47,129 nt of DNA from positions 1 to 47,129 of IMG/VR virus record IMGVR_UViG_3300042691_003166. One strand, given 5' to 3'. Made by a program: the position numbers and the translations under genes. This DNA comes from a virus. Shown here one piece after another: positions 1 through 47,129 of this stretch. The notes under the pieces were generated by a model. It was given only the letters and a program-made list of their open reading frames with translations, searched no databases and was not told the origin of the DNA. Positions within the stretch are counted from its first letter, which is position 1; each line of letters opens with the position of its first letter.

Positions 1-69
1 AAGCATTCTCTAACTCGATTGCGGAGATCCTGGCGCATCCGGATCTCAATCAGTGGGAGTACCTGCTGA
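1..69. repeat. Terminal direct repeat, left copy
   Basis: These 69 bases are identical to the last 69 bases of the window (47061-47129). The glycosyltransferase reading frame that runs off the right end continues in frame from the left end. The sequence is therefore a closed circle, or a permuted linear genome, with one overlap counted twice. The overlap lies inside a gene and has no hairpin or cos-like feature, so an assembly overlap is likelier than a true packaging repeat. Confidence 0.95.
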
Positions 70-506
70 CTATCGAGCACGATAACATCCCACCTTCGGA
101 TGGTTTAGTAAAGCTTATCCACCAGATGGAAACGCATCCTGAGTTCTCTTGTATTGGTGGATTGTATTGGACTAAGGGGCCTCAAGGCCAGCCCCAAATC
201 TGGGGAGATCCTAAGGATCCTGTGCTGAACTTCCGTCCACAGCCTCCTGATCCCAATGGTGGATTAGTTGAGTGCTGCGGAACAGGTATGGGATTCAACC
301 TCTGGCGACTGTCAATGTTCAAAGATGAGCGCTTGCGCCGTCCTTGGTTCAAAACTGTTGCAGGCGCAGACGGAGTAGGAACGCAGGACTTGTACTTCTG
401 GGGTGATGCTAGGAAGCACGGCTACCGTTGTGCAATTGACTGCTCCGTAAAGGTTGGTCATTACGATATGACCGGCCAGTTCGGCATCGAAGATTTTACT
501 TGGTAA
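1..506 (+). CDS. Glycosyltransferase, GT-A fold (3' part of gene crossing the genome join)
   Basis: This is the C-terminal part of a 243-residue protein whose start is the TTG at 46835; the two parts share the 69-bp terminal repeat and the frame is kept (first full codon here is position 3). It shows GT-A features: an EHDNIPP motif in the DxD position near the left end, a GTQDLYFW motif resembling the acidic (E/Q)D motif of GT2-like enzymes, and GHYD near the C terminus. It probably transfers a sugar from a nucleotide-sugar in the cytoplasm. Acceptor and donor are unknown. It is followed directly by a methyltransferase gene, and other glycosyltransferases lie upstream at 37435-40989, so virion or host-surface glycan modification is inferred. 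Confidence 0.75.
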   Translation, partial: AFSNSIAEILAHPDLNQWEYLLTIEHDNIPPSDGLVKLIHQMETHPEFSCIGGLYWTKGPQGQPQIWGDPKDPVLNFRPQPPDPNGGLVECCGTGMGFNLWRLSMFKDERLRRPWFKTVAGADGVGTQDLYFWGDARKHGYRCAIDCSVKVGHYDMTGQFGIEDFTW

Positions 507-514
507 GGATACTT

Positions 515-1057
515 ATGAAAATCGATTTGGGTTGCGGTAAGAACAAGAAGGAAGGTTTCATTGGGGTGGATCAGTACTCAATGGAAGGTGTGGACGTTGT
601 TCTGGATATTGGTACGGATCCTTGGCCTTGGGAGGACAACTCCGTTGATGAAGCGCACTGTAGTCATTTCCTTGAGCACTTGACTAATCTTGAAGGTAAG
701 TGGCAACGCATTCATTTCTTCAATGAACTGTACCGCGTACTCAAGCCCGGAGCTACTTGTGCAATTATTATCCCGCACTGGGCTTCAACTAGATACTATG
801 GTGATCCTACGCACAAGGAACCGTTCTCGGAGATGGGATTCTATTACCTGTCCAAAGAGTGGCGCATGGGGAATGCTCCGCATACGGATATTGAGATTAA
901 TCCTAATGGGTACTCCTGTGATTTCCAAGCGGTTTGGGGTAACGGAATGCATCCTGCTATTGCTCAGCGTAGTCAGGATTTCCAACAGTTCGCTATGGCA
1001 TGGTTTAAAGAAGCTATTCAAGACTTGCACACAACGCTGACTAAGCCAAACAAGTAG
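515..1057 (+). CDS. SAM-dependent methyltransferase (class I)
   Basis: The 180-residue product begins MKIDLGCGKNKKEG, the glycine-rich SAM-binding loop (motif I). It has an aspartate in GVDQYS for the ribose and an EELYRVLKPG-like post-motif (NELYRVLKPGA) typical of class I enzymes. An in-frame TTG exists at 500, but ATG 515 is preferred because AAGGA lies five bases upstream and the SAM loop starts at once. It resembles the shorter methyltransferase at 39827. Both sit beside glycosyltransferases, which suggests methylation of a sugar or of a glycosylated protein rather than DNA. The true substrate cannot be read from sequence. Confidence 0.8.
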   Translation: MKIDLGCGKNKKEGFIGVDQYSMEGVDVVLDIGTDPWPWEDNSVDEAHCSHFLEHLTNLEGKWQRIHFFNELYRVLKPGATCAIIIPHWASTRYYGDPTHKEPFSEMGFYYLSKEWRMGNAPHTDIEINPNGYSCDFQAVWGNGMHPAIAQRSQDFQQFAMAWFKEAIQDLHTTLTKPNK

Positions 1058-9582: not shown

Positions 9583-10545
9583 ATGTCCAACTATACGCTG
9601 AATACCCCTTCGTTTATCGAAGCCCAGCAGTACAGTCAGTTCATCCTTCGCACCCTGCCGACTGCGATCCTTCCCCAAGGTTTTTATCGGGATGTATCGG
9701 ATTTCGGTGCGGGTTCGACGCTGAACATCAAAACTATCGGTACGGCCACGATTCAAGAAGTAGAAGAGGATTCGCCTCTTATCTATAACGCGATCGAAAC
9801 CGGCAACGTAACCCTGTCCATCACCGATTACATTGGCGATGCTTGGTACGTAACCGATATCCTTCGTCAGGATGGTTCGCAGATCGAGGCCCTGATGGCT
9901 GCACGCGCCCAAGAGGCAACCCGTGCAATCCAGCAGCGCTTTGAGAGCCGCTTCTATCAGGTGGCTTACAACGGTCAAACGGCTGCTAACCAGAACCTCG
10001 TCAACGGTTTCGCACACCGCCAGCGTGCTACGGGCACCAACTGGACGATGAGCGAGGACGATCTGATCTCGATGCGTCTTGCCTTCGATAAGGCCAACGT
10101 ACCGCAGTTCGGTCGTGTTGCTGTTGTTGATCCGGTTGTTGCTGCTACCTTCCAGAAGAAAGTAGTCATCACTTCGCAGCTTGATCGTCATCCGGCGTAC
10201 CAAGAAGTCATGATGAACGGCTTTGCTAACGAGCACCAGTTCGTTATGCGAATCCACGGCTGGGACATCTGGACCTCCAACCTGCTTCCGCAAGTAGCGG
10301 CTGGCACTTCGGTTGATGGTTCGGCATCCGCTTCCACCACTTGTGTTGCTAACCTGTTCATGTGCATTGCGGACGATAACTGCAAGCCCGTGATGAATGC
10401 CTGGCGCCAACAGCCCAAGGTAGAAGGTGAGCGTAACAAGGATCGGCAGCGTGATGAGTTCCTTACCACTGCTCGTTGGGGCATGGGTCTTCAGCGCAAG
10501 GACACCCTTGGCGTTGTTGTATCCGATGCCGTAAAGACGGCTTAA
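9583..10545 (+). CDS. Major capsid protein
   Basis: The 320-residue protein follows the scaffold gene and has a strong ribosome site (TAGGAGA). Its length fits an HK97-fold podovirus capsid protein, and codon use looks optimised with few rare codons. The N-terminal arm (SFIEAQQYSQFILRTLPTAI) precedes a long helix (ALMAARAQEATRAIQQRFES) that fits the spine helix of the fold. A C-terminal domain follows with LGVVVSDAVKTA at the end. The next gene is a decoration-like protein. Confidence 0.85.
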   Translation: MSNYTLNTPSFIEAQQYSQFILRTLPTAILPQGFYRDVSDFGAGSTLNIKTIGTATIQEVEEDSPLIYNAIETGNVTLSITDYIGDAWYVTDILRQDGSQIEALMAARAQEATRAIQQRFESRFYQVAYNGQTAANQNLVNGFAHRQRATGTNWTMSEDDLISMRLAFDKANVPQFGRVAVVDPVVAATFQKKVVITSQLDRHPAYQEVMMNGFANEHQFVMRIHGWDIWTSNLLPQVAAGTSVDGSASASTTCVANLFMCIADDNCKPVMNAWRQQPKVEGERNKDRQRDEFLTTARWGMGLQRKDTLGVVVSDAVKTA

Positions 10546-10560: not shown

Positions 10561-11013
10561 ATGGCTAAAGAAAATAGCTCCGGTCTTGGCGTTAACACTC
10601 GCTATGGCGCTATCTCGATCCCCGATGGGGCTCGCGGTGCGCTGGGCGGGCACGAAGGTGCGTTGAACTATCTTGCGGTAGAGTTCTCTGCTGATAAGAT
10701 TAACAACGACTCCATCAACGCTCCCACTACGATTCTCTTCAATGCACTCCCGCTTCGGGCGTGGGTGGAAGTAGAAACGGCTCTCTCGCTCTCGGGTGCA
10801 GGCGCAGCACTCTCCTTTGGTCGTCAAGGGGCTCTCGGTACGGACAGTGCCGATATCTCCGGTACGGCTAAGGGTGTAGGCTTCGCTGTTGCCGCCCTCA
10901 AGGGTACGTTCTCGACGGGTATTACCGCTACGACTACGGTTGTAATCGGTGTAGCCGGCGGTTCGATCAACGAGGGCTCCGGTCGATTCGTTATTGAGTA
11001 CCTCAAAGTCTAA
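10561..11013 (+). CDS. Putative capsid decoration or minor head protein
   Basis: The 150-residue product is rich in Ala, Gly, Ser, Thr and Val, with alternating beta-strand pattern (TTTVVIGVAGGSINEGSGRF). It lacks charged helices. It has one of the strongest ribosome sites here (AGGAGGAAT) and sits between the capsid gene and a strong terminator, which suggests high expression. A decoration or head-fibre base protein fits best. No family was recognised with confidence. Confidence 0.6.
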   Translation: MAKENSSGLGVNTRYGAISIPDGARGALGGHEGALNYLAVEFSADKINNDSINAPTTILFNALPLRAWVEVETALSLSGAGAALSFGRQGALGTDSADISGTAKGVGFAVAALKGTFSTGITATTTVVIGVAGGSINEGSGRFVIEYLKV

Positions 11014-15002: not shown

Positions 15003-18000
15003 TGCAAATAACTCCGACGTACTCTATTAAGCCTCCTGTCCAAGAGCAACCCCTGTATTCTCCGGATCAACTGGAGTCCTTGGCGTTACAGTTCAGCATG
15101 GCACAGGGAAGCGTCTCTCAAGATCAAATGAATCTTAACAGGACGCGCTTGTCTTTTGGCGATGAGCAAAGAATGCGAACAGAGTTACAATTAAAATCAG
15201 AGCAGGAAAGCAAAGGAATTGCTGCAAGTACTCTGGATTCTGCTCTTGCGAGCGGGAACGTAGACCTCGCCCAGCAAGTAGTAACTCAAGGTATTCCTAA
15301 AGAAACCAACATGGTGATGGAGAACTATGCTGCGGATTTTGCAGCAACTATAAAGGATTCAGATCCGGCAGAAGTAGTTCGTCCTGAAGACATAGGCTCT
15401 GACATTAGAAAGAATGCGCGTCTGTTGCGATTAAACAACGCATTTAACGAAATAACAAGGGAGTTAGAAACCAAGTACGTACCAAAAGATCAAGCTGATA
15501 TTCAGCCATTGGCTGTTGGTCCTCAAGGAGAACCCATATACACAGACGTAGCAATGTATCGACAAACAATCGATTTGCTGAAAACGTTTGTTAACAGTAT
15601 TTATGCTGGCGCAAAGAGCGGTGTTAGTACATTCTTCTTTTTCCCTGGAACTAAGAGTGAAGTAAATGCGGATCAGTTGTGGGATCCTGCCATAAGCGAT
15701 GAAGAATTCGGCAAAAGACTTAATACTCTTATGCAGGGTATTCGGGATTCTTTTCTTGATAAAGGCGCACTGGATAATCCACTGCAAGCAATGTCAATGC
15801 TTAGGGATATGATCTCTACTAGCCAGCTTGATAAGCCTGAGTTTCAGGAGTTGCTTGCAATAAAAGGGGTAATTGACGAGCAAGGGCAAGTCCAAGAAAA
15901 CATCCTTGGAAAGAGTTTTGATCCGGCAAGTACAGTAGATCAAGTTTTCTCCAACAAGACATTCCAGAACTTCATAGATAATCCTTTGTTTGATATTCCT
16001 CTGGCGCTATCCAGCATTGATCTAATTAAAGCAACCATGGGTAGCACAACTGCTGGTCGTTTGCTTGCCAATCAAATACAGGGCGGGAAAGTCACTGCCC
16101 AGAACTTTCGCTACCGTACCCAAATGAATTATCCCGGCGGGATACAGAATCCTGAATTGCTTTCTATTGTTCAAAGAGAGATGGTAGAACCGCTTGCAGA
16201 AGGACTAGAGAAAGCAGTAGATCCTTTGCGTATAAAAGGCAGCGCTGCACAAATATCAGCAGAGCAACAAAGGATTCAACGAACAGAGTTCCCCGGTAAG
16301 AACCTGGCTTACTTTGAACACGTTGTAGAAGGGCCAAACCAATTCATGGCTGTTAACATTCAGTCAAGGGCAGGCATTCCTTTCTATACAGAACAAAGTG
16401 CTAGGCAGGCAGGTAATGCTCAAGGTCTTTCTAATTTCAAAGTAATCCCTAATGCTAGAGGAAATGGCTGGCTTATCCAGATACGTCGCGGTATTGATGA
16501 ATCCGGATGGATGGATACAACAATAACTAAAGATGCCAACTGGATCGATAATCTTTTTGGTATCGGTAAGTACGCTTGGAGTCCAAAGAGAACCAGTACT
16601 AAATCTCAACTGCGCGGAGCAACAAGTGCTGCTCTGGAAACATCCGAGTACGCTAAGAATTACAGCAGGTTGTACAAGTTCTGGGAAGCACTTGGAGGCG
16701 ATGAGTTAGATAAAGTGCAGGAGTTGATGCTAAAAGGTATGCGTACTCCTAACCCTAGTGATCCTACTGGAAGAACACTGGGTAAGTGGTTTGATGAAAC
16801 CGAAATAGATCAGCACTACATTAGCGTGTACGGCAGACAAGCATCTCTTGAGGAGAAGTCAGCTTACTATGCGTACAGGGCGTCGTACGATCTTGACTAC
16901 GAGCTTATGAATAAAAGGCAGTACGACAATGCAGCAGCGGCTGGATTAAGCCATTACACCGTTGATGATATTGCAGGTATCGATGACTTCCTTCTTGCCC
17001 GAGCGGTAGATAACCGAACGGCTATTTCAGAAAATGCAAGATTTGTTCTATCAAACGGAATGGTGGTTGATAAAGCAGGAGCCGCCACTGAATTAGCGGA
17101 TAAAACAAATACTGTACTGCGACTGCACGGTAGGATGGATTATGCAGGACAAGAAGTAACACACATCATCCAGAAGTACAGCAAAGTAAAATCCAGCGGG
17201 CTTAATCCGTACGTGCTTGGTTACACGGAGGGTGGTGCGCGCAGGTACGCAGAAAAGTGGCTAGTAAAACAAGAGATGGGGGATGTTAGTCCTTCTGTCC
17301 ATGCGATATTCCCCAGCGAAGCTCATGCGATGAAGTACGCAGAGCAAATGACGCAGATCCAAGCAAAGTACAATGATTACCAGAGAGCAATTACCAGACT
17401 AGGGGCTAATGCTAACCAGGTGCAGTTGAATGCTCTTCGTAGGCAATACGATGCTGACATTCACAATATCCATGACGGATACACGCTACAAAGAGTTCAG
17501 CAAGAAATTGCTAACGGTAAGTTCAGTAGGGACGGTAAGTTCAACTCTGTGTTCGACAGAGAGGATCTTCCAATGAAAGGGATTGCAGAGAACGAACAAG
17601 TCTTGCAATTGAACCAGCACAAAGGAAAACTGTATTACTCCAAACGAGGAGAGCATCTGACAGACGGTTACGTTGGTAACTACGCTGAACTGGTTCCTCC
17701 TTTTGAAGCATTGGCGCAGCAGATGACACACGCTAGTCGGATGGCTGGCTACAGCAATTTCGCCATCAAAGAAGTTAATTCCTGGATGGCTAAGTACGGG
17801 AAATGGCTGCGTCTTGATAATCCTAATGTCCGATTCCCCGCACCAGAACAGTTGTTTAGGGATGGGGTGTGGATCAAGAATCCTGAAGGAATATCAGAGA
17901 ACGTACTTCAAGTAGCACAAGCACAAAGGATGCACATCCTTCGGGAACTGAGGCACCCTGATGCTCTTGGTGCGAAGGTTATGGAGAAGAAGCTCTCGCT

Positions 18001-35429: not shown

Positions 35430-35613
35430 ATCAGGCTCTCCGTTTGTGTTTCCTGTTTCCCTGTTTCCGTCCCGCGCATCCTTGCGCTCGACCCGAATTC
35501 TAGTGCTTTTGTCAAAAATCAGAAGCCCGAAAACATATGATATTTTTTCAACAGTCCAAGTAACCAATCAGCTCGTGCCATTGCACTAAATGAGATGCGT
35601 GCGTGCGCGCGTA

Positions 35614-35629
35614 GCATCAAGTGTGCCAA
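35614..35629 (-). promoter_or_regulatory. Sigma-54-like -24/-12 element facing the early genes
   Basis: On the minus strand the sequence TTGGCACACTTGATGC fits the -24/-12 consensus TTGGCACG-N4-TTGC with two mismatches and the exact ten-base gap between GG and GC. It points to the first early gene, starting 185 bases away. No sigma-70 -10 box is found at a proper distance in the GC-rich DNA after it. Confidence 0.4.
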
Positions 35630-35916
35630 AATCCTGGACTACTGTACAAACCTCCAGTGTACAGGTGTACATGCCGCTGAAACGCTCTCAGAAGCGCCAC
35701 AGCGCACAGAATGGGTGGAATGCTAGTGGGCTAGCAGGTAGATGCTCAGCGCACTAATGAGAATGACTCGCATCTCGAGGGTATTCATGGCGTGAATGGT
35801 GTAAGGATTAGTTGACACATCAAGGTGTTGCGATCGATTGACACTGATTGATGGGGTAGTAACGTGCTACAGTGTGTTATGCACCAATCACATACATCTA
35901 TAGCAATTATGCATAG

Positions 35917-35977
35917 TGCTCGATCTGTCTCGATCATGCAGCGATATGTCGCTAGATGTCTCGATCATGCTCGATCG
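35917..35977. repeat. CGATC iteron-like cluster
   Basis: TGTCTCGATCATGC occurs twice (35926-35939 and 35957-35970), spaced 31 bases or about three helical turns. TGCTCGATC occurs at both edges, and another CGATCGAT lies 85 bases upstream. The regular spacing suggests binding of an initiator or regulator. Confidence 0.55.
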
Positions 35978-35987
35978 TGCAGCAACT

Positions 35988-36060
35988 AGCGCGCGCCTGG
36001 GCGCGCCTGGGCACGCGTGCGTGCGCGAGCGCGAGTGGGTAGCCCCGGGGGTGCGGGGGG
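35988..36060. other. GC-rich block with two-copy 10-bp repeat
   Basis: The block contains GCGCGCCTGG twice in tandem (35991-36010), a third degenerate copy, then alternating GCGTGCGTGCGCGAGCGCG and a G-rich run with CCCCGGGG. The alternating purine-pyrimidine tract could adopt Z-DNA. It stands out sharply from the AT-rich DNA that follows. Confidence 0.5.
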
Positions 36061-36310
36061 CTGGACTATAGTGCATTGCACCTCAAAAATTTCTCCAATG
36101 TTTTCTACAACCCGAGTCGTTCACCTCAACAAAATTTGCAATATTTTTAGCAATCACCCCGATCGGTACATTATTCCCAGTAAACCCAAGTAAACTTAAT
36201 AATTTTCCTGTTCGGGAAATATATTCTCCTCTCCGTATACTCGGTTATACTTGGTTATAATTATTTATAATCCAATAGTGATCCGTTCTGAATGACTCTT
36301 CGTATCTCTT

Positions 36311-36429
36311 AGTACTAAGTACAGTACTCTTACAGTACTAAGTACTAGTACAGTACAAGTACTATACTTAAACCTTCTAGGTTTATACTGTACTAAGTAC
36401 TAAGTACTAAGTACTAAGTACTAAGTACT
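36311..36429. repeat. AGTACT array with five-copy 7-bp tandem repeat and TAAACCT palindrome
   Basis: Ten AGTACT palindromes occur in 119 bases. The right part is five perfect copies of TACTAAG (36391-36425). An inverted repeat TAAACCT-TCT-AGGTTTA lies at 36369-36385 and is followed by TACTGTACT, as in the block at 33157-33222. The array sits about 100 bases upstream of the plus-strand promoter. A role as operator array or origin iterons is inferred. Confidence 0.75.
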
Positions 36430-36492
36430 GGTAATGTCCTCCATTCCATTCCGGACTGAATGGTACTCAGTGATTCATTCTCACTTAGCGTT

Positions 36493-36510
36493 ACAAACCA
36501 AGGGGTTTGT
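36493..36510. promoter_or_regulatory. Perfect inverted repeat upstream of the late promoter
   Basis: ACAAACC-AAGG-GGTTTGT has a 7-bp stem and four-base loop, and is followed by TTT. It could be a weak terminator blocking read-through into the late unit, or an operator for the promoter that starts 18 bases later. Confidence 0.45.
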
Positions 36511-36527
36511 TTTAAAGTATTCCAATC

Positions 36528-36556
36528 TGGACTGTATATACCAATACTGGTATAAT
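36528..36556 (+). promoter_or_regulatory. Sigma-70-type promoter with extended -10 for the plus-strand unit
   Basis: A perfect TATAAT at 36551-36556 is preceded by TGG (extended -10) and, with a 17-base spacer, by TGGACT (four of six -35 consensus bases). Transcription would start near 36563 and give a leader of about 200 bases before the first gene at 36763. Confidence 0.6.
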
Positions 36557-36601
36557 TACTCTACCTTCTGAGCGTTAAGCGATAGCGACCAAGTGTTAGG
36601 G

Positions 36602-36617
36602 TTGGCACGATAATTGC
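36602..36617 (+). promoter_or_regulatory. Sigma-54-like -24/-12 element facing the late genes
   Basis: TTGGCACGATAATTGC matches TTGGCACG-N4-TTGC at every fixed base, with the required ten bases between GG and GC. It is directed to the plus-strand unit; the first gene begins about 146 bases later. Confidence 0.5.
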
Positions 36618-36669
36618 GCCAGATACAAGAACTTCCTAGAAAGCCTTAGGATCGATTCCAGAACAGACA

Positions 36670-36685
36670 AGCTACCCTTGTAGCT
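36670..36685. other. Short hairpin in the late mRNA leader
   Basis: AGCTAC-CCTT-GTAGCT forms a 6-bp perfect stem with a tetraloop in the untranslated leader before the first late gene. It may stabilise the mRNA 5' end. Confidence 0.35.
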
Positions 36686-36762
36686 CCCATAGCCAGAAAA
36701 TCGCTTACAGCGCTTCCTAGAGCGTTTAAACAGTACTGAACAGAGACACCAAGGAGAACCAA

Positions 36763-36894
36763 GTGCCCAAGATGCTAGAAGACCTCCGGAAGAAGATCCA
36801 GAAGACTGGGAAGTCCAAGGAGTCCGCTTACGCTATTGCTACCGCTGCTCTCCAGAAGCAAGGCAAGATGCCCAAGAAGAGGAAGTCCAAGTGA
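36763..36894 (+). CDS. Small conserved basic phage protein (SAYAIATA motif)
   Basis: The 43-residue product is Lys-rich and contains KESAYAIATAALQKQG, a motif of small proteins found in many podoviruses. GTG 36763 has AAGGAG six bases upstream; the in-frame ATG at 36772 is less well spaced. Its TGA overlaps the next GTG (GTGA). Function unknown; perhaps a DNA- or capsid-binding peptide. Confidence 0.65.
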   Translation: MPKMLEDLRKKIQKTGKSKESAYAIATAALQKQGKMPKKRKSK

Positions 36895-37034
36895 AACCCG
36901 GACTGTACGCTAACATCCATGCCAAGAGGAAACGGATCAAAGAGGGTAGCAAGGAGAAGATGCGCCTTCCTGGATCCAAGGGAGCACCTACCGCTAAGGC
37001 GTTCAAGCAGTCCGCCAAGACAGCCAAGAAATGA
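36891..37034 (+). CDS. Small conserved basic phage protein (KPGLYANI motif)
   Basis: The 47-residue product starts MKPGLYANIHAKRKRIKEGS and includes MRLPGSKGAPTAKAFKQSAK. KPGLYANI and PGSKGAPT are familiar from short proteins in podovirus genomes. It begins at an overlapping GTG and ends at an overlapping ATG, so three genes are translated as one coupled block with the holin. Confidence 0.65.
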   Translation: MKPGLYANIHAKRKRIKEGSKEKMRLPGSKGAPTAKAFKQSAKTAKK

Positions 37035-37426
37035 ATCCACTCCTGCTTTCCCCTGCCCTTGATCTAGTCTCCAAGGTACTGGATAGGGTCATTCCTGACA
37101 AAGCTCAGGCTGAGAAAGCCAAAGCTGAGTACGCTCTACTGGTAGCCAAGCAGGGTCAGGACGAAGTTGACAGTTTCAGAAAGTTCGTAGTACAGTACGA
37201 AGGAGAGGGGGCGAGTGTATCTCCTCCCTTGCAATTCCTCAGAGGATCGGTACGCCCAGTACTCACTTACATTCTTGCTGGACTGTACGGTTGGGGATTC
37301 TTGCATCCCGGTACGTTTACACCCGATGGTATGCAAGGACTCTTTCAGTTGAATCTCATCTCACTAGGATTCTGGTACGGTGAGCGCGCACTATCCAATC
37401 TGGGGCTGAATCTATCGAAGACATGA
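37031..37426 (+). CDS. Holin, 3TM gene-transfer-agent type
   Basis: The 131-residue product has a charged N-terminal part (VLDRVIPDKAQAEKAKAEYA) then FVVQYEGE, LRGSVRPVLTYILAGLYGW and a second hydrophobic region (FQLNLISLGFWYGERAL). This layout, with PDKAQAEKAK and SVRPVLTY, matches the family known as GTA_holin_3TM. It would form membrane lesions that let the endolysin out. The lysis genes are split: holin here, endolysin at 21432, which lies in the same transcription direction but at its far end. Confidence 0.75.
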   Translation: MNPLLLSPALDLVSKVLDRVIPDKAQAEKAKAEYALLVAKQGQDEVDSFRKFVVQYEGEGASVSPPLQFLRGSVRPVLTYILAGLYGWGFLHPGTFTPDGMQGLFQLNLISLGFWYGERALSNLGLNLSKT

Positions 37427-37434
37427 GGTAATCA

Positions 37435-38943
37435 GTGCAAGACGAACTCCAGGGAATGGATCCAGAATTCAAACAAGGATTGTCCGAAGCCTCTCAGTAC
37501 CACCAGACCTTTATTCAAATGACCTCCCAGAAGGGTCGTTTTGATACCCATCAAGCCGCTCAATGCGTCGAACGCTCGGAGAGTATTTACTCCGAACTCC
37601 TCAACAAGGACATCCATAACGAGATAGTCCTGTACCAACTAGCCACACTGTACATGCAGACCAATCGAAACGGTCTCGCCATTAATCTCCTAGAACCCCT
37701 CGTACAGAACTCCAAGAAACCAAAGATCGAGTGGCTCAATAACCTCGGGGCTGCGTACCGCAATGAGCACTGCAATGCAGAGGCCAGAGAAGCCTTTGAG
37801 CAAGCTCTGAAGCTGGAGTACCACCCCGATGTACTGGCTAACCTGTGCGCTCTCTGGGTAAACGAGGGTAATCCAGCTAAGGGTATTCCCTATGGCAGGC
37901 AGTGCCTTGAGTTGCGTCCTGACCATCCTCAGGGTAACTGGAACCTTGGCCTACTGCTAATCGAGAACAAGCAGTACGAAGAGGGCTTCAAGTTCTACGC
38001 AGAAGGATTCCAAACTGGAGAGCGTATTGTTCGATCCTACAAGGACAAGGGTGGTAAGGAAGCCAAGTTCTGGAAAGGAGAGGATCTGACAGATAAGACG
38101 ATTGTTCTGCACGGAGAGCAAGGTATTGGGGATGAACTCCTGTTCATGCAATTCGTTCCTGAGTTCCTCAAGGCTAATCCCAATACTCGGGTAATCCTGG
38201 ATGTGCATCCCCGGTTGTACACCGCTATCCAGCGATCCTTGCCAGAGATTAACGATATCTTCCCAACCCGTAAATCCAAACAAACACCCGAGTGGAATGA
38301 CACTATTCGAGTGGATTACAAGGATGGATTGGGATCATTGCCTCGTTGGTACCACCAGCAAAGGCGGGTTAACTCAGGATGGCTAAAGCCCAATCCTGAG
38401 CTTGTATCTAAATACAAAGGAATTGTACGTACCATTCAGGAAGAAACGGGTCAAATTGGGCGTCCTATTGTCGGGATAGCCTGGACTGGAGGTAAGAAGA
38501 AAACCCGTGTGGACTTGCGAAGCATCCCGCTTGAGAAACTCGTACCTGTACTCGAAAATGATGCAACCTTCGTTTCATTGGAGTACCTGCCCGGAGCAGA
38601 GAAACAGACTGGAGAGTTGCTCAAGAGGCACGGAATCTACCTGCACCACTGGCCTGACGTTGTGGAGGATCAGGATTACGAGCACTCAATGGCACTCGCT
38701 GCGGCCTGTGATCTCGTCATCTGTGTGAACACCAGTATGGTGCATGTACGGGGCTCCATGGATCTCCTTACGTGGACTCTGACACCGCATGGTCACGCTT
38801 GGCGTTATGGTAAGAAGGATGAACTGAATCCCTTCTACAACTCCGTTATCCAGTACCATCAAGATGAAGGCGTTGACTGGGATATCCCAATTAGTAAAGT
38901 AGCCAAGGATCTCAAGAAATTCTGCCGAGGGTTCAAGCCGTGA
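37435..38943 (+). CDS. TPR-repeat glycosyltransferase
   Basis: The 502-residue protein has tetratricopeptide-like repeats at about residues 40-190 (for example WLNNLGAAYRNEHCNAEARE and ALKLEYHPDVLANLCALWVN). A GT-B domain follows, starting with IVLHGEQGIGDELLFMQFVP, the motif of bacterial TPR-linked heptosyltransferase-like enzymes. VGIAWTGGKKKTRVDLRS and CVNTSMVHVRGSM are the later GT-B motifs. Such enzymes act on LPS or on proteins; TPRs bind protein substrates in GT41-type O-glycosyltransferases. GTG 37435 has GAGG six bases upstream. It heads the sugar-modification gene block. Confidence 0.8.
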   Translation: MQDELQGMDPEFKQGLSEASQYHQTFIQMTSQKGRFDTHQAAQCVERSESIYSELLNKDIHNEIVLYQLATLYMQTNRNGLAINLLEPLVQNSKKPKIEWLNNLGAAYRNEHCNAEAREAFEQALKLEYHPDVLANLCALWVNEGNPAKGIPYGRQCLELRPDHPQGNWNLGLLLIENKQYEEGFKFYAEGFQTGERIVRSYKDKGGKEAKFWKGEDLTDKTIVLHGEQGIGDELLFMQFVPEFLKANPNTRVILDVHPRLYTAIQRSLPEINDIFPTRKSKQTPEWNDTIRVDYKDGLGSLPRWYHQQRRVNSGWLKPNPELVSKYKGIVRTIQEETGQIGRPIVGIAWTGGKKKTRVDLRSIPLEKLVPVLENDATFVSLEYLPGAEKQTGELLKRHGIYLHHWPDVVEDQDYEHSMALAAACDLVICVNTSMVHVRGSMDLLTWTLTPHGHAWRYGKKDELNPFYNSVIQYHQDEGVDWDIPISKVAKDLKKFCRGFKP

Positions 38944-39830
38944 TGAATGTATCCTACGTAACCACAGGGAATGACAATATTGCTTCCTTTCGGTACCGAA
39001 TCCTCTCTCCTGCCCAGAATCTGGGTAAGCATCTCATCATTCCTAGTGTAAGCAGCCTAGCTCGAAAGGAGTCCGAGGTTGTTGTATTCAGTAAGCACTG
39101 GACGTACAACGATTGGAGTTACGCTAAGTTCTGTAAACTTCGTGGACAAAAAGTAATCTTTGATGTCTGTGATGATCACTTTGAAGGAAAAATGTCGGAT
39201 CACTACCGTAGGATGTCAGATGTTGCTGACACTATTACGTGTAACTCCTACGAGATGGCTGAGGTTATTAAGGAAAAAGTAAACCGGGACGCAATAGTTA
39301 TCCCTGATCCTGTCCTTTCTCCTCAACTTTCCTACGATCCTGACATGCCAACCAGTCTTTGCTGGTACGGACAATCCATGAACATCCATGGTTTGTACGA
39401 TGTGTACACAGAGGACTGCACGTACCCACTAGAAATCGTACTTCCGAGTAATGTCCAGCCTCCTGCGTACTTCCAAGCTCCTCAAATTCGATGGACTCCT
39501 TGGCACAAGGATATAATTCCTGATCTTGCTGAGCGCAATACGGTAGCAGTTTTGCCTTATAGGCAGGGAAAAGCAGCGAAAAGCGCCAATCGTGTACTGG
39601 AAGCCCTGCAATGCGGGATGGTTGTTCTGACGGATTCAATTCCCAGTGTACAGGAACTTCCGAAAGCAGGAATTGCGTACTTGGATCGACCCATTAACGA
39701 GATTATGGAGTCAGTTCGTGGCTGGAACTGGGGACTAGAGATAGAAAAGGCCCAAAAGCATATTGCTGAGAACTACAGTCCAGAGGTAATTGCGGATAAG
39801 TGGGCACGAGTCTTTGGGAGTCTCGCATGA
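38943..39830 (+). CDS. Glycosyltransferase, GT4-like (GT-B fold)
   Basis: The 295-residue product starts MNVSYVTTGNDNIASFRYRI and has a C-terminal region with LPYRQGKAAKSANRVLEALQ CG, which is the sugar-nucleotide site of GT4-like enzymes, followed by DSIPSVQELP. The N-terminal domain has FDVCDDHFE. It would add a sugar to a glycan made by the neighbouring enzymes. The start ATG 38943 is right at the end of the TPR gene and the 3' end overlaps the methyltransferase start (ATGA). Confidence 0.8.
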   Translation: MNVSYVTTGNDNIASFRYRILSPAQNLGKHLIIPSVSSLARKESEVVVFSKHWTYNDWSYAKFCKLRGQKVIFDVCDDHFEGKMSDHYRRMSDVADTITCNSYEMAEVIKEKVNRDAIVIPDPVLSPQLSYDPDMPTSLCWYGQSMNIHGLYDVYTEDCTYPLEIVLPSNVQPPAYFQAPQIRWTPWHKDIIPDLAERNTVAVLPYRQGKAAKSANRVLEALQCGMVVLTDSIPSVQELPKAGIAYLDRPINEIMESVRGWNWGLEIEKAQKHIAENYSPEVIADKWARVFGSLA

Positions 39831-40297
39831 AACTCAATCTAGGCTCAGGTAATCGCCCTCTTGAGGGTTACATTGGCGTGGATTTAGCGCCTAATGCGGA
39901 TATCAAGTGCGATTTGCGTAAGTTGGAGTTCGCAGAGGACAACAGTGTAGAGGAGATCATTGCAATCCATGTTATCGAGCACTTCTACAAGTGGGAAGTG
40001 CAAGGAATGCTGCAAGAGTGGCGCAGGGTACTGAAGCCAGGAGGCAAGATTATCCTTGAGTGCCCGGATCTGAAGAAAGCAGCTCATGCATTCCTTATGG
40101 GAGCAGGGGATCAAATGGGAATGTGGGCCTTCTATGGCAATCCTGACCTAAAGAATGAGTTCCACTGTCACCACTGGGGTTACACGCCTGAGACGCTGGC
40201 ATACGAGCTACAACAGGCAGGATTCAGGGATATCCAGAAGTGCCAAGCCCAGTTCAAGATACCCGCAAGAGATCTCCGCATGGAAGCATTCAAATGA
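39827..40297 (+). CDS. SAM-dependent methyltransferase (class I)
   Basis: The 156-residue product starts MKLNLGSGNRPLEGYIGVDL, the SAM-binding loop plus acidic residue, and has HVIEHFYKWEVQGMLQEWRR then VLKPGGKIILECPD, as in class I methyltransferases (type 11/UbiE-like). It is paralogous to the gene at 515. Embedded between two glycosyltransferases and coupled to both by ATGA overlaps, it is likely to methylate a sugar. Confidence 0.8.
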   Translation: MKLNLGSGNRPLEGYIGVDLAPNADIKCDLRKLEFAEDNSVEEIIAIHVIEHFYKWEVQGMLQEWRRVLKPGGKIILECPDLKKAAHAFLMGAGDQMGMWAFYGNPDLKNEFHCHHWGYTPETLAYELQQAGFRDIQKCQAQFKIPARDLRMEAFK

Positions 40298-40989
40298 GGG
40301 AAACCCACAAGATTCCTGTGTACATTGGGTACGATCCAGTAGAGTCCGGAGCCTTCTGGACTTGTGCTGCCAGTATCCTTGAGCACAGCTCTGAACCCGT
40401 ACAGATTACCCCTCTCAAGAAAGCACAACTCCCTCTTACAAGAGCTAAGGATCCCAAGCAATCCAACGAGTTCTCCTTTACTCGCTGGCTAGTACCTCAC
40501 TTGCAAAATTTCAAAGGGCATGGTATATTCGTAGATTGCGACTTCCTGTTTTTAACTGATATTGCGGAACTGTGGTTCCTGCGAGATAGCACTAAAGCAG
40601 TGCAAGTCTGTAAGCACAATACGGATACCTTCAAGGAAGGTAAAAAGTACCTGGGAACAGAGCAAACAGTATACGAAAAGAAGTGCTGGTCCAGTCTGAT
40701 GTTGTTCAATTGTGAGCACCAATCAACCAGCAGGCTTACTCCAGGGTATATAGACAGAGCCAGTGGACTCGATCTGCATCAATTCAAGTGGTGCAAGGAT
40801 GAGGAAATTGGCTCTTTGCCTATTGAGTGGAATCATCTTGTTGGGCACTACCCTTACAGGGATGATGCCAAGGCTGTTCACTTCACCGAAGGTGGGCCGT
40901 ACTTCAAGGATTACTCTGATGTGGATTATACCCAAGCGTGGTGGAAAGCATTCCGTAAAATGAAATACGTCAAAGAAGGACTTACGTGA
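40294..40989 (+). CDS. Glycosyltransferase, GT8-like (GT-A fold)
   Basis: The 231-residue product has IPVYIGYDPVESGAFWTCAA near the N terminus and GHGIFVDCDFLFLTDIAEL at about 72-90, the DxD motif (DCD) with its flanking strands as in GT8 and related retaining enzymes. NEFSFTRWLVP precedes it, also typical. Late motifs include AVHFTEGGPY. ATG 40294 overlaps the previous stop; the upstream in-frame extension is not used. The GTGA overlap with the next gene links sugar enzymes and adhesins in one operon. Confidence 0.8.
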   Translation: MRETHKIPVYIGYDPVESGAFWTCAASILEHSSEPVQITPLKKAQLPLTRAKDPKQSNEFSFTRWLVPHLQNFKGHGIFVDCDFLFLTDIAELWFLRDSTKAVQVCKHNTDTFKEGKKYLGTEQTVYEKKCWSSLMLFNCEHQSTSRLTPGYIDRASGLDLHQFKWCKDEEIGSLPIEWNHLVGHYPYRDDAKAVHFTEGGPYFKDYSDVDYTQAWWKAFRKMKYVKEGLT

Positions 40990-41843
40990 CAATTAATGCC
41001 ACTAGAAAAATTATCTCTTTGACAGGCCCGAACTGTTCGTTCGGCAATACTAGCGCGTGTCGGGTGGATGTGGTGGTGGGGGCTACTCCGTTTTTTACTG
41101 ACGGTTTTGAGTCCGGCAACCTTACATACACTGAGAACGGCGCTAACTGGCTGGCTGGAACAAACACAAGCGTCCAGTCAGGGCGAGGTAATCCGGGTTA
41201 CGCGCTGCAGTTTACATTTACAGGGACACCCGACGCAGACAACCCCGCCAATGCCATCGGCGAGCAGCGATTTGAGTTGGGTGCTTTGTATGTCGGCCTG
41301 ACAACCGAATTCGACCTCTACATCCCAGACGGCGCGGAAGCGTGGGGCGGTGCCGCATACACGCACCGCACAGCGACAAGCGGCGGAAGCAACAATAAGT
41401 TTTATCGTGTATGGCCGGGAAATGGGTCAGAAGCGTCGCCGAACGACACGTACAACGAGCCGGGCAAGCTAGGTCTTTCACTGTTGCCAGAGGGTTCGTA
41501 TTCACGGTTGTATTGCGACTGGAATTCAGTAGACGACGGTCTAGGGCAGACGCAACGCGGAACGCCAGCAGATGGGTTTATAAACGCCAGCGATCTTGGC
41601 ACATGGGTGTCGGTGAAAGTTTATTTCTACCACGCTCAAAGCGCTTCAGAGCGCTCAATCATTCGCGTTTGGAAAAATGGATCGTTGGTTATAAACGAGA
41701 CGAACATAAATAACTACCGCGCCGATCAGGTCGGTGGATGGGGTGCGTGGTACGGTTATTTTCTTGGCGCGGCAAATACAGGCTTCCTCAACACAACGTA
41801 TCTGCAAGTCGATAACGTCCGTTGGTACGGCGGAGAAGCGTAA
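40986..41843 (+). CDS. Adhesin / receptor-binding candidate with jelly-roll (lyase-like) domain
   Basis: The 285-residue protein has a short native N terminus (MTINATRKIISLTGPNCSFG) then FFTDGFESGNLTYTENGANW. A lectin/polysaccharide-lyase-like beta-sandwich follows, ending TYLQVDNVRWYGGEA, a layout common in concanavalin-like carbohydrate-binding domains. From about base 41085 the DNA is GC-richer with GTAC at random level, unlike flanking genes, so this body looks imported. It probably binds or degrades a host polysaccharide. GTG start overlaps the previous TGA. Confidence 0.65.
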   Translation: MTINATRKIISLTGPNCSFGNTSACRVDVVVGATPFFTDGFESGNLTYTENGANWLAGTNTSVQSGRGNPGYALQFTFTGTPDADNPANAIGEQRFELGALYVGLTTEFDLYIPDGAEAWGGAAYTHRTATSGGSNNKFYRVWPGNGSEASPNDTYNEPGKLGLSLLPEGSYSRLYCDWNSVDDGLGQTQRGTPADGFINASDLGTWVSVKVYFYHAQSASERSIIRVWKNGSLVINETNINNYRADQVGGWGAWYGYFLGAANTGFLNTTYLQVDNVRWYGGEA

Positions 41844-42727
41844 TGGCGTTGGTATTTGGCAACGTAGAAAACACCGATTGGAAATACGTTGATTCAAGCG
41901 TAGTTGCCACATCTGTCAACGTCCCAATCCCAGCGTGTTCTGCCGGGGAGTTAATTGTAATCGTTGGGTACATAGACGTAGGAACCGCGTCATTCTCAAC
42001 GCCTACCGACTTTGCTGTTGGTTTTACAGGATCAAACAACGAGGGTGGCCTTGGAATCTTTACCAAAACAGTGACGGGTTCTGAAGGGTGGGGCGGCGGT
42101 AGCGGCACAGTAACGCTATCTCGGTCCGGCGGCTCGGACGCATTGATTCAAGCAATATCGCTTCGCCTCACAGGCCACAATACGACAACGCCCTACAATG
42201 TGGGCGCACAGGCGACGGCCACAGGCGGCGCTAACTGGAACAGCCCAAGCATCACGACAACGGAGAACGGGTGCATTCTGTTCTTTGGCGGTGGCTCGCG
42301 TGACACTGCGGGCACGTTTGACGTAGGAGACGAGCCAGACACGACTACGCTTATCAAACAATGGGCGACGTCGGCTTCGTGGCTCGGTCTGGCATACGAG
42401 ACACAAACAACCGCTGGCGCAACAGGCACGCGACAGTGGACAAACCCTACGAACGCAAAGCGAGCTTTCTCGTTTGCTATTGCGCCGGCTGTAGCCACCG
42501 GCCTCACCATCACCAGCGTCAATACGACGAATACAGCTTTTTCTGCTCAAACTAATTCAGCAGTAATTGGAACAGGGCTTAGCGCGAGTGTTGTATGCAC
42601 CTATGCAGGTATTGCTTGCACTAACGAATCCGCTAGCAGCTCTACAAGCCTCAAGATTACATTCCCTAATTTCTTTACCAACAATATAAAGTTGGGAAGA
42701 AACTATGAATTCAAGGTGGTTGGATAA
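41843..42727 (+). CDS. Virion surface / adhesin protein (composition-mosaic)
   Basis: The 294-residue product (MALVFGNVENTDWKYVDSSV...) is Thr/Ser/Gly-rich and beta-structured, with motifs such as GCILFFGGGSRDTAG. The first 230 residues have GC-rich, foreign-looking codons. The last 60 (from about base 42535) return to native codon style, so one recombination join lies inside this gene. It starts by TAATG overlap. It is probably a tail-associated decoration or adhesin. No family is recognised with confidence. Confidence 0.55.
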   Translation: MALVFGNVENTDWKYVDSSVVATSVNVPIPACSAGELIVIVGYIDVGTASFSTPTDFAVGFTGSNNEGGLGIFTKTVTGSEGWGGGSGTVTLSRSGGSDALIQAISLRLTGHNTTTPYNVGAQATATGGANWNSPSITTTENGCILFFGGGSRDTAGTFDVGDEPDTTTLIKQWATSASWLGLAYETQTTAGATGTRQWTNPTNAKRAFSFAIAPAVATGLTITSVNTTNTAFSAQTNSAVIGTGLSASVVCTYAGIACTNESASSSTSLKITFPNFFTNNIKLGRNYEFKVVG

Positions 42728-44013: not shown

Positions 44014-46671
44014 ATGGCAACAACCGCAGTTCTTCGACATCGCAGGGATACCGCAGCAAACTGGACTTCCAATAATCCAGTTATGCAAGCAGGCCAGCTT
44101 GGCTACGAAACCGATACTCTGAAATTCAAGTTCGGAGACGGTTCTACGTCATGGATATCCTTGTCGTACGCTGCTGCTGTTAGCACTGGTGGAATCTCTG
44201 ACGGCGATAAAGGAGACATCGTTGTCTCTGGTAGTGGCGCAACCTGGACTATCGATACAGGCGTAGTCAGTACCTCCAAGATGGGAGGGGATGTTACAAC
44301 TGCTGGTAAAGCTCTCCTTGATGATGCGGATGCAACTGCTCAAAGGGTTACTCTCGGCCTTGGCAGCATAGCTACTCAGAACGCTAACGCAGTCTCCATT
44401 ACAGGTGGAACGCTTACGGGTGTAGTTGTAAGCACCGGAGCGTACTCCAGCAATGTAAATGAAACCCTGATGCGGATTGTACGCAAGTCAACCGCTGGAA
44501 CAATCACAAAGGGACAAGCAGTCTATGTAGTTGGTTCCACGGGTACGCACCTTACCGTTGAACTCGCGGATGCTTCTACGGAAGCAACAGCAGCTACTAC
44601 TATTGGTGTAGCAGCAGAAAGCATCAGCGACGTAAGCGATGGTTATATGATCGTTGCTGGTTTGCTTACAGGCCTGAGCACTCTTCCTACAGCATCCTTT
44701 ACAAACGGAGCAGCTCTCTGGCTATCCGAAACGGCTGGAGCTTTGACTACCACTCGTCCTACTCAACCCGCGCACGGCGTTGCAATGGGATGGGTAATCA
44801 ACGCAAGTAACGGTTCCGCTGGTTCTGCTTATATTAAGATCATTAACGGGCAAGAACTTGAAGAGTTGCACGATGTACTAATTGTTAGCGCAACTGCTGA
44901 CAACGTACTCATGTATGATTCGGCAGTCAGTCTCTGGAAGAATCGCTCTGCTGGGTACTTGTCTACCCTCATTACGGGCTTTGCCTCTGCAAGTCACGCT
45001 CACAGTACCGGGGACATTACCTCCGGTATCTTTGCCCCTAGTTTCCTTGGTTCAGGATCTCCTTCAAGTACTAACTTCCTTCGCGGGGACGGATCCTGGG
45101 CATTGCCTGCTGGAGGAGGCGGTGTTGCTATTGCTGCGGGTACTCAGACGGGTACATCCGGCACAATTAACTTCGCTAACTCTAATGGCATCACGTTCGG
45201 GATGTCGGGCAGTACCCAAATTACGGCTAGCCATAACGGGATTACAATACAGACTGTCCAAACACAAGCATCGGGAAATATCGTTGGTGCTGGTTTCTCC
45301 AGTACAACTACGACTGGTGTAAACATTGTTGGTACTAACAACAGTCTTGGGTTGAGTCTTGGTGTTCCAGCTTATTTGACTACCCAATCCGTACAGACGC
45401 AAGCCTCTGGGAACATAGCGCGTACAGGCTTTACCAGTACAAGCACTACAGGAACAGCTCTTGTCGGTACTCTGAACACAAGTGGTTTGAGCTTAGGTAT
45501 TCCTGCGTACCTGACAACTCAGTCCGTACAGACTCAGGCTTCTGGCAACATCGTTGGTTCTGGATTCTCTAGTACTACGACTACTGGTACGGCCATCGTA
45601 GGGACTAACAATAGCAACGGCCTTAGTCTTGGCGTACCCGCGTACCTTACGACACAATCAGTTCAAACGCAGGCATCCGGCAATATTGCAGGATCGGGTT
45701 TTACTGGGGCAAATGCTTCGGGTACACTGAACTCAAACGGATTGTCTTTATCCATTGCCGCTCCTGGCGCAGCTAACTACTCTATTGGTGTATCCAACCT
45801 TGGCAACACTGCGGGATCAACAGGGATCACAGGGACGCGTATTGTCTTTGTCGGTACGAACAATATCTCGCTTAGTCAGTCCACGGATGCAAACGGTGCC
45901 ACAATCTCTATTAACCAAACAGGTGGAGGAGGTGGAGGACTTACCAACATTAACGTCTCCGCAGGGACCACCTCTAATAACCTGTCGAACATTGTCTTTA
46001 GTAACAGTAACGGTGTCACGTTCGGACTAAATGGTTCAACAGTTACAGCAAGTGTTGCAGCAGGAGGCGGAGTTATTGAGTCAGGTTACTCTCCGCACGG
46101 AGACTATCCGCTCGTAGTAGGCCAGATCGGTCAAGGTACGTTAGCATTGGATCCGGATATTTTCCCGGACCTAACCATGAATATGGTAGCCATGCCGATT
46201 AACTTTTCTAACGCATCGAACTCAACGGGATCGTTCACAGTATCGAACTGGCTTGGATTGTACAGTCGAAACGTAAGCACTATCTCTCTCGCGCATTCAA
46301 CGTCTTTTACAACAGGTATTACGTTCTCTGGTTCTGCAAACAGTAGTTTGTACCAAGGTTGGCGCAATCTTACATTCCCTTGGAGTACATCCGTTTCTGG
46401 TGGACGGTACTGGATCGGTCAGATTGTTAGAACGACAACAGGCGGCGCTAACTGTTCGTTCTCTCAATATCTTGCTTCGCAGGTAAACACTAACTTCCTT
46501 GGAAATTTCGGAGTCGCAACAAACGCTAGCGCACAGCTTACGTTGGGTCAGGGCTTTTATAGCGCATCAACAACTGCACTACCCGGATCAATAGCGTTTA
46601 CTCAGATTCAAGGAACTAACTCTCTTGCTCAGCGCTTTCCCATGGTAGCGTTTGGTTTTAATACGGTATAA
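44014..46671 (+). CDS. Main tail fibre with Mtd-like N terminus and 45-residue repeats
   Basis: The 885-residue protein starts with RHRRDTAANWTSNNPVMQAG then LGYETDTLKFKFGDGSTSW, the Mtd_N-type attachment domain (about 1-52). A segment with ASASHAHSTGDITSGIF follows at about 327-343. Four repeats of 45 residues (QSVQTQASGNI... GLSLGVPAYLTT) lie at about 413-580, then a Gly-rich linker (GGGGG) and a C-terminal domain. The protein is very rich in Ser, Thr, Gly and Asn. It probably contacts the host cell; no diversity-generating reverse transcriptase or repeats are found. Confidence 0.8.
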   Translation: MATTAVLRHRRDTAANWTSNNPVMQAGQLGYETDTLKFKFGDGSTSWISLSYAAAVSTGGISDGDKGDIVVSGSGATWTIDTGVVSTSKMGGDVTTAGKALLDDADATAQRVTLGLGSIATQNANAVSITGGTLTGVVVSTGAYSSNVNETLMRIVRKSTAGTITKGQAVYVVGSTGTHLTVELADASTEATAATTIGVAAESISDVSDGYMIVAGLLTGLSTLPTASFTNGAALWLSETAGALTTTRPTQPAHGVAMGWVINASNGSAGSAYIKIINGQELEELHDVLIVSATADNVLMYDSAVSLWKNRSAGYLSTLITGFASASHAHSTGDITSGIFAPSFLGSGSPSSTNFLRGDGSWALPAGGGGVAIAAGTQTGTSGTINFANSNGITFGMSGSTQITASHNGITIQTVQTQASGNIVGAGFSSTTTTGVNIVGTNNSLGLSLGVPAYLTTQSVQTQASGNIARTGFTSTSTTGTALVGTLNTSGLSLGIPAYLTTQSVQTQASGNIVGSGFSSTTTTGTAIVGTNNSNGLSLGVPAYLTTQSVQTQASGNIAGSGFTGANASGTLNSNGLSLSIAAPGAANYSIGVSNLGNTAGSTGITGTRIVFVGTNNISLSQSTDANGATISINQTGGGGGGLTNINVSAGTTSNNLSNIVFSNSNGVTFGLNGSTVTASVAAGGGVIESGYSPHGDYPLVVGQIGQGTLALDPDIFPDLTMNMVAMPINFSNASNSTGSFTVSNWLGLYSRNVSTISLAHSTSFTTGITFSGSANSSLYQGWRNLTFPWSTSVSGGRYWIGQIVRTTTGGANCSFSQYLASQVNTNFLGNFGVATNASAQLTLGQGFYSASTTALPGSIAFTQIQGTNSLAQRFPMVAFGFNTV
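45250..45759 (+). repeat. Four 135-bp coding repeats in the tail fibre gene
   Basis: Repeat starts at 45250, 45385, 45520 and 45655 are exactly 135 bases apart; the fourth is shortened. The protein motif QTQASGN is identical in all four, yet the codons differ at nearly every synonymous position. Each unit also carries GLSLG(V/I)PAYLTT in the complete copies. Confidence 0.8.
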
Positions 46672-46673: not shown

Positions 46674-46838
46674 ATGGATATTAATGATTTTTCTGCGTAC
46701 ACACGGTTCTTTTTAAACGAAGATGAATATATAGTATTAGTTGATCTTCCTGTACAGAAAACCCTGTGCTGTCGCGTAGCGGACGTAGAAGGAGGAGCTA
46801 CGTTTGTACCTGTAATACTAATGGAGGCCCCTGTTTGA
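46674..46838 (+). CDS. Small protein downstream of the fibre gene
   Basis: The 54-residue product (MDINDFSAYTRFFLNEDEYI...) is acidic, ending VPVILMEAPV. It lies two bases after the fibre stop and its TGA overlaps the TTG start of the glycosyltransferase at 46835. It also carries that gene's ribosome site (GGAGG). It may be a fibre chaperone or linked to the glycosyltransferase. No family recognised. Confidence 0.6.
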   Translation: MDINDFSAYTRFFLNEDEYIVLVDLPVQKTLCCRVADVEGGATFVPVILMEAPV

Positions 46839-47129
46839 AGCCACAAATTGTCTCGTTGGATAGCGGACATCACAACGAAGACCTCGCTGGATCAACTACC
46901 AGAGTAGTTCAAGGCGGGAGTTGGAAGAAACAACGAACGGTTATGCTTATACCAGCGGGAACGACTATACCAACTAAGGTATATCTTTCGCACTGCGGCA
47001 TAATCTTTCCACCTAACCAAGCAGCACATCGGATGGCAGCTATTGGGATGGAAGTAGGAGAAGCATTCTCTAACTCGATTGCGGAGATCCTGGCGCATCC
47101 GGATCTCAATCAGTGGGAGTACCTGCTGA
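46835..47129 (+). CDS. Glycosyltransferase, 5' part (continues at window start)
   Basis: This is the N-terminal part of the protein described at 1-506. TTG 46835 is supported by GGAGG seven bases upstream and by TTGA overlap with the previous gene. The N terminus (LKPQIVSLDSGHHNEDLAGS read from TTG) leads into LIPAGTTIPTKVYLS and HPDLNQWEYLLT at the window edge. The complete gene across the join is 732 bases (243 residues). Confidence 0.7.
   Translation, partial: MKPQIVSLDSGHHNEDLAGSTTRVVQGGSWKKQRTVMLIPAGTTIPTKVYLSHCGIIFPPNQAAHRMAAIGMEVGEAFSNSIAEILAHPDLNQWEYLL
47061..47129. repeat. Terminal direct repeat, right copy
   Basis: This copy is identical to bases 1-69. Both copies lie inside the glycosyltransferase coding frame, which is continuous through the join. 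Confidence 0.95.

Follow-up and report, generated by a model that had tools for sequence, protein, structure and literature searches.

In mycobacteriophages, capsid and tail tube proteins are glycosylated, a modification that has been read as a shield, according to the account of Freeman et al. 2023 given in PMC12619734. Glycoproteins have been detected in phage XacN1 (PMC5852040), and chlorovirus PBCV-1 encodes A064R, a protein with two glycosyltransferase (GT) domains and one methyltransferase (MT) domain that serves its capsid glycan (PMC9614988). The bacterial enzyme FlmG of Caulobacter crescentus has a TPR domain that is required and sufficient to bind flagellins and a GT domain that modifies flagellin (PMC7591256). 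Here we examine a viral DNA record of 47,129 bp (IMGVR_UViG_3300042691_003166, called “the window” as a whole) that carries two sets of intact GT and MT genes. Cassette A, between a holin-like gene and fibre genes, encodes a TPR protein with a GT-B domain (TPR-GT), a GT4-like enzyme, a class-I MT and a GT8-like enzyme. Cassette B, a GT2-like enzyme and a second MT, follows the main fibre gene across the circular join of the map. It is probable, as judged from gene content and comparison of loci, that this phage glycosylates and sugar-methylates its own virion proteins, with cassette A acting on capsid or cement proteins or on fibres, and cassette B acting on the distal part of the main fibre. 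An earlier note on this DNA had proposed a TPR-guided system of this kind, encoded with the virion genes. The comparative data lend that proposal partial support: they make virion proteins a better candidate than DNA or a glycan of the host, and they point to two substrates.

The four genes of cassette A (Table 1) are joined by stop/start overlaps of 1–4 bp (TGATG, ATGA), which makes translational coupling plausible. Start codons were corrected using relatives and these overlaps; for the GT8-like gene, ATG 40294 was chosen because relatives begin there. The block of genes that the earlier note had placed ahead of adhesin and fibre genes is confirmed, and all four genes are found at the corresponding position in each of five related contigs, where TPR-GT is 74–100% identical. 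The genes are under purifying selection. The ratio of nonsynonymous to synonymous substitution (dN/dS, taken where dS was unsaturated) is about 0.04–0.1 for TPR-GT, MT and the GT8-like gene (0.04–0.07 for MT) and about 0.2 for the GT4-like gene, the fastest evolving of the four. The GT4-like protein has an RVLEALxCG motif conserved among relatives and no match among phage records. The GT8-like protein, 44–51% identical to relatives in other phages, has a conserved DxD motif (FVDCDFLF); the window copy scores 20.0 bits against PF01501, where the cut-off is 24.3. The cassette A MT is proposed to be a sugar O-methyltransferase. One might suppose that such genes are randomly acquired cargo (moron genes) with no virion function, as GT genes are often mobile and the GT4-like gene evolves fast. 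This is very improbable in view of the selection on all four genes, their retention in all five relatives and the recurrence of TPR-GT, MT and GT8-like genes as a trio across many diverse phages, described below.

In TPR-GT, Pfam TPR matches cover roughly residues 40–200, and the GT-B domain spans roughly residues 215–502. The structure prediction that the earlier note had suggested as a check gave an AlphaFold2 model, built from 52 sequences, with a mean confidence (pLDDT) of 93.9. Its nearest folds in the PDB (Foldseek) are SPINDLY and OGT, which are TPR-bearing protein O-glycosyltransferases, at low TM-scores of 0.28–0.37 that derive partly from the TPR part. Pfam recognizes only TPR in the window protein; there is no GT41 match in it or in its homologues, and no GT9 (PF01075) match in it, the homologues reaching GT9 at sub-threshold values only (E 0.007–0.27). 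In view of the low TM-scores, to which the TPR part contributes, and because Pfam finds TPR alone and GT9 stays below threshold, we avoid both labels and describe the modelled protein as a TPR-linked GT-B enzyme assigned to neither GT41 nor GT9. As in FlmG-like enzymes, an N-terminal TPR region is fused to GT-B, there is no transmembrane segment, and homologues are linked to the gene of a protein substrate. We propose that TPR-GT is a protein-directed initiating glycosyltransferase.

Such a link is seen in bacteria. Strong TPR-GT matches were found in 54 of 115 Alphaproteobacteria genomes surveyed. Among the matches listed, in genomes with listed flagellins, 20 of 119 have a flagellin gene no more than 10 kb away (1.6 expected), and such a neighbour occurs in 11 of 27 genomes (1.5 expected); this whole-genome test widened a first, motif-based one, which had found flagellins at 5 of 79 loci. 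Flagellin linkage is also seen at four planctomycete loci and in a further contig (flagellins recognized by PF00669 in those genomes). In this contig, CAMAPQ010000010.1, genes for flagellin, an MT, a GT8-like protein of the same family and TPR-GT stand in a row; it is filed as a Klebsiella pneumoniae metagenome-assembled genome, a species label that looks wrong. Because homologues lie near flagellin genes, and because FlmG has this architecture and binds flagellin, we infer by analogy that the phage TPR-GT also acts on a protein.

In phages, the neighbours of TPR-GT are different. A search with a five-sequence alignment returned 378 viral stretches, of which 80 were kept; these yielded 57 non-redundant sequences, 43 of them with at least 2 kb upstream. 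At 37 of these 43 loci, a major capsid protein (MCP) gene and a gene for a protein of about 140 residues lie directly upstream of TPR-GT. Three further loci have TPR-GT behind an MCP of the unrelated family phrog_1328, so that an MCP gene is upstream in 40/43; of the three exceptions, two are window-type phages and the third has an HNH endonuclease on the upstream side. The family of about 140 residues has profile matches to the cement proteins of GP4, Pam1, KHP40 and KHP30 (PDB 8h89, 7eel, 7dou and 7dn2), and cement proteins of the same four phages are the top four folds for its model (pLDDT 85.3). Downstream, within 4 kb, a GT8-like gene is present in 33 of 44 cases and an MT gene in 29 of 44, and 19 downstream neighbours match PF01501 (E ≤ 0.001). 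Because MCP and cement genes upstream and GT8-like and MT genes downstream accompany TPR-GT at most loci, the trio appears to be an old unit adjoining capsid genes. In the tree, the TPR-GTs of phages group as a single clade (support 100). The window sequence is nested inside it, so the fibre-side position of cassette A in the window phage is probably derived. We note that OMJK01000028.1, filed as a Nitrospiraceae genome, groups with the phages in this tree and has genes for MCP, cement, TPR-GT, MT and a GT8-like protein; it is viral sequence in a bacterial bin.

These neighbourhoods bear on a role in DNA hypermodification, such as the base glucosylation of T4. That is the best-known role of phage GTs, and a neighbouring gene in phage ctKR88, introduced below, is annotated as a beta4glucosyltransferase. 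In the window, GTs are encoded among virion genes, as they are at related loci, and relatives lie beside capsid, cement and flagellin genes; moreover, TPR-GT has the kind of fold seen in protein glycosyltransferases. We rejected the explanation, which now seems hardly credible, because no partner gene resembling a hydroxymethylase or thymidylate synthase was seen in the scanned open reading frames (ORFs), some small ORFs lying outside the scan.

We now turn to cassette B. The GT/MT pair that had been placed after the main fibre (46835–1057) is real once a 69-bp repeat shared by the ends of the record is allowed for. The GT2-like label comes from the appearance of the sequence (EHDN as a DxD-like motif), and there is no Pfam match. 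The protein is 70.7% identical to one from phage ctKR88 (MW202524.1), where GT2, about 8 kb behind a capsid gene, is preceded by a fibre-like, repeat-rich ORF and an additional MT, with other GT genes nearby. From 42 viral loci plus ctKR88, we obtained 31 non-redundant loci with readable upstream sequence and took from each the closest ORF of 120 residues or more on the upstream side of GT2. This ORF has a median of 36% Ser+Thr+Asn and reaches at least 30% at 24 of 31 loci, versus 17.7% for the other ORFs of the same loci, of which 36 of 315 reach at least 30% (permutation p about 1e-4). Homology to the window fibre (E ≤ 1e-5) was found for 20 of 30 upstream ORFs, one of them from a near-identical phage. 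The match is to the distal fibre (residues ~371–885, densest at 600–680) and, save in close relatives, never to the N-terminal attachment domain. At most related loci, an ORF of MT-like size directly follows GT2.

Two relatives refine this picture. G004 shares fibre residues 1–338 at 90% identity but has an unrelated distal part and lacks the GT2/MT pair, its fibre being directly followed by the next shared gene. In G001, the repeat region is present, the tip has no match and the pair is kept. Because the pair accompanies the repeat region there without a tip match, the comparison points to the repeat region (residues 371–650, 40.7% Ser+Thr+Asn) as the segment linked to GT2/MT. Single-sequence searches with the fibre tip mostly returned contigs already in the GT2 set and make a weak converse test. 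The link between GT2/MT and the fibre is, on these comparisons, well supported. The composition of the fibre was treated separately. The note had called it extremely rich in Ser, Thr and Asn. The whole fibre does contain 33.8% Ser+Thr+Asn (26.8% Ser+Thr), where most of the phage's other virion and packaging proteins have 14–22%. The other adhesins and spikes of the phage reach 25–32%, so that the enrichment is genuine but in part a common trait of beta-rich fibres. Composition alone was dropped as weak evidence, and the linkage and co-absence tests were used instead. As a side observation, ctKR88 has three more GT-like genes soon after its capsid gene (3147–7307; 761 residues with a GT2-like start, 309 and 333 residues), possibly a further virion glycosylation array; the 165-residue protein behind that capsid gene, tried as a cement protein, is not of the cement family.

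What, then, does cassette A modify? Its position in most phages suggests capsid or cement protein, and its position in the window phage suggests the adjoining fibres; either could be the substrate. In a narrower form of our proposal, both cassettes would act on tail fibres only. Both do flank fibre genes in this phage, cassette B is linked to the distal fibre, and the nested position of the window TPR-GT fits a history in which cassette A left the head genes and came to lie among the fibre genes. But cassette A adjoins capsid and cement genes in nearly all other phages, the adhesins next to it are not conserved with it, and enzymes can act in trans. Among the five relatives, the adhesin encoded at 40986–41843 is matched only in the near-identical G005. 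Cassette A is kept in all five and thus is not tied to this adhesin. The holin-like gene on its other side is syntenic in all five (94–100% identity). We regard the fibres-only form as possible and rather doubtful. The tail-fibre pathway of the earlier note is therefore well supported for GT2/MT, where composition, homology and co-absence agree, but not, in the form given there, for the TPR-GT block, which is linked to MCP and cement genes elsewhere and in this phage may act on head proteins or on fibres.

The serious rival to modification of virion proteins is modification of the host. Here, the enzymes would alter a surface polysaccharide (O-antigen or capsule), blocking superinfection or re-adsorption of progeny, and would travel with glycan-binding fibres. 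GTs frequently act on lipid-linked glycans, this is how GT clusters in jumbo cyanophages were interpreted (PMC7824862), and a fibre that binds a receptor and an enzyme that modifies it would also be expected to show the linkage seen for cassette B. Several features fit poorly. The genome is apparently that of a lytic, T7-like phage, with no integrase recognized in the scanned genes; the enzyme genes are placed among virion genes; none of the enzymes of cassettes A and B has a strongly hydrophobic, transmembrane-like segment, and no GtrA/GtrB-like partner was recognized. Moreover, an action on polysaccharide poorly explains why TPR-GTs are linked to capsid and cement genes in phages and often to flagellin genes in bacteria. 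We consider this rival unlikely.

Glycosylation of virion proteins thus seems the better explanation, and a number of points weigh against it. Ser/Thr/Asn richness is common in fibres, and the Ser/Thr/Asn-rich ORFs that precede GT2 had hardly any fibre matches in a PHROG scan. The fold matches of TPR-GT have the low scores given above. As phage TPR-GTs are one clade, shared ancestry may partly explain their conserved position behind MCP genes. In the window phage itself, cassette A is not beside the capsid genes, and adjacent adhesins have been swapped while it was kept, so adjacency does not name the substrate. As said of the rival, linkage of fibre and enzyme would also be expected if the enzyme altered the receptor of that fibre. 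No genes for nucleotide-sugar synthesis were recognized among the genes scanned. Finally, our observations are of gene content, overlaps, selection, folds and linkage, and the virion glycan is a prediction from these.

If virion proteins are the substrates, glycosylation and methylation would take place in the host cytoplasm, late and before assembly, by soluble enzymes using host nucleotide sugars as donors. For cassette A, the TPR domain would grip a virion protein and the GT-B domain would attach an initial sugar to it, in the way that FlmG modifies the flagellin of Caulobacter. Elongation of the glycan would then fall to the GT8-like and GT4-like enzymes, and capping to MT. For cassette B, the GT2-like enzyme and its own MT would give the distal part of the fibre, rich in Ser, Thr and Asn, a further decoration distinct from the first, and the pair would be inherited together with the distal fibre segment. 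Substrates, order of steps and glycan are all put forward conditionally, and the benefit could be shielding, receptor tuning or stability. It is quite possible, if just short of an even chance, that the scheme is general: many uncultured phages would share an FlmG-like, TPR-guided cassette for O-glycosylation and sugar methylation that originally acted on the capsid cement protein. Independently of this, distal fibre segments would spread between phages with dedicated GT2/MT pairs that decorate them, and parts that bind receptors would thus travel with glycosylation enzymes of their own.

Table 1. Positions of the cassettes, the main fibre and other features in the window
Feature	Position	Strand	Remarks
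Cassette A gene 1, TPR + GT-B glycosyltransferase (TPR-GT)	37435..38943	+	GTG start, 502 aa
Cassette A gene 2, GT4-like glycosyltransferase	38943..39830	+	likely start ATG 38943 (longest ORF from 38940); PF13692/PF13524 sub-threshold
Cassette A gene 3, small class-I S-adenosylmethionine-dependent MT	39827..40297	+	likely start ATG 39827 (not 39800); PF08241 9e-9, phrog_6636
Cassette A gene 4, GT8-like (GT-A) glycosyltransferase	40294..40989	+	likely start ATG 40294 (not GTG 40240); phrog_28018 2.5e-52
Cassette B gene 1, GT2-like	46835..47129 continuing 1..506	+	243 aa once one 69-bp copy is removed
Cassette B gene 2, class-I MT	500..1057	+	likely start ATG 515; PF08241 3.7e-6, phrog_6636 8.7e-12
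Main fibre	44014..46671	+	N-terminal Mtd_N (PF18454 3.3e-10), Ser/Thr/Asn-rich repeat residues 371–650, tip residues 700–885
Holin-like gene	37031..37426	+	PF11351 1e-5; left boundary of cassette A
Adhesin/fibre genes directly behind cassette A	40986..42727	+	40986–41843, weakly polysaccharide-lyase-like; 41822–42727
Major capsid protein	9583..10545	+	phrog_267 1.6e-44; alternative substrate
150-aa protein directly behind capsid gene	10561..11013	+	by position a candidate cement protein, alternative cassette A substrate
69-bp direct repeat	1–69 and 47061–47129		circular assembly redundancy; inside the GT2-like gene, which it splits in the linear record

With its shared ends merged, the record closes to a circle of about 47,060 bp. 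The window phage looks like a T7-like podovirus because it encodes a T7-type terminase, a head-tail connector, a family-A DNA polymerase and a primase-helicase. The minus strand carries the replication genes and the plus strand the virion genes, which run from 37 kb over the circular join as far as 21 kb. The late transcription claimed in the earlier note is an expectation from strand and neighbours only, as promoter and terminator matches in the window were no more numerous than in shuffled sequence. Between the divergent gene sets lie about 1.5 kb mostly without long ORFs (35516–37030), probably a control region. For the protein encoded behind the capsid gene, comparison with the cement family is suggestive at most (hmmsearch E 0.86; hhalign E 0.09 over 50 columns), and a PDB search gave no cement match; homology was dropped, as the profile scores are not significant. 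Elsewhere, a probable internal or ejection protein of 1550 residues (15002–19654) is only 26–47% identical in relatives whose ribonucleotide reductase and 21432–21767 genes are ~90% identical or more, and the presumed ejection proteins appear strongly mosaic. A tandem pair of tailspike-like genes with pectate-lyase/beta-helix folds (1307–4510) match the same N-terminal stretches in relatives, which suggests modular spike exchange.

If our reading is right, virion glycosylation is no peculiarity of mycobacteriophages, as at least 378 viral stretches encode TPR-GT relatives. It would explain a common and hitherto unexplained gene set (MCP, cement, TPR-GT, MT, GT8-like) and offer a genetically simple toolkit for bacterial protein O-glycosylation. 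Phage-host recognition would also gain a further layer, with a fibre segment and its decorating enzymes being exchanged as one unit.

Known systems show both likenesses and differences. FlmG also joins an N-terminal TPR domain to a C-terminal GT-B domain, and bacterial members of the TPR-GT family lie near flagellins; in contrast, the system here is phage-encoded, its partners are MT, GT8-like and GT4-like enzymes, its presumed substrate is a virion protein, and we liken the two by architecture and not by sequence. OGT and SPINDLY (CAZy GT41) are likewise TPR plus GT-B protein O-glycosyltransferases and the best PDB fold matches, but at low TM-scores and ~13% identity, and the weak sequence resemblance of TPR-GT homologues is to GT9. 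The cement proteins of Pam1, GP4, KHP30 and KHP40 share fold and profile with the protein found between MCP and TPR-GT in other phages. Phage serotype-conversion (gtr) cassettes are similar as phage-encoded GTs possibly tied to receptor recognition, but in the window no membrane flippase or lipid-linked GT partner was recognized, nor an integrase in the scanned genes. PBCV-1 combines virus-encoded GTs with sugar O-methylation, as proposed here, but it is a eukaryotic virus with an N-linked glycan and a different architecture. Mycobacteriophages, in the account cited above, are alike in that virion proteins are glycosylated, as is proposed here. With that work published, the word “undescribed” in the earlier note was too strong for the principle. 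In the literature consulted, mostly without subscription papers, we found no description of a cement-linked TPR-GT/GT8/MT trio or of a fibre-linked GT2/MT pair.

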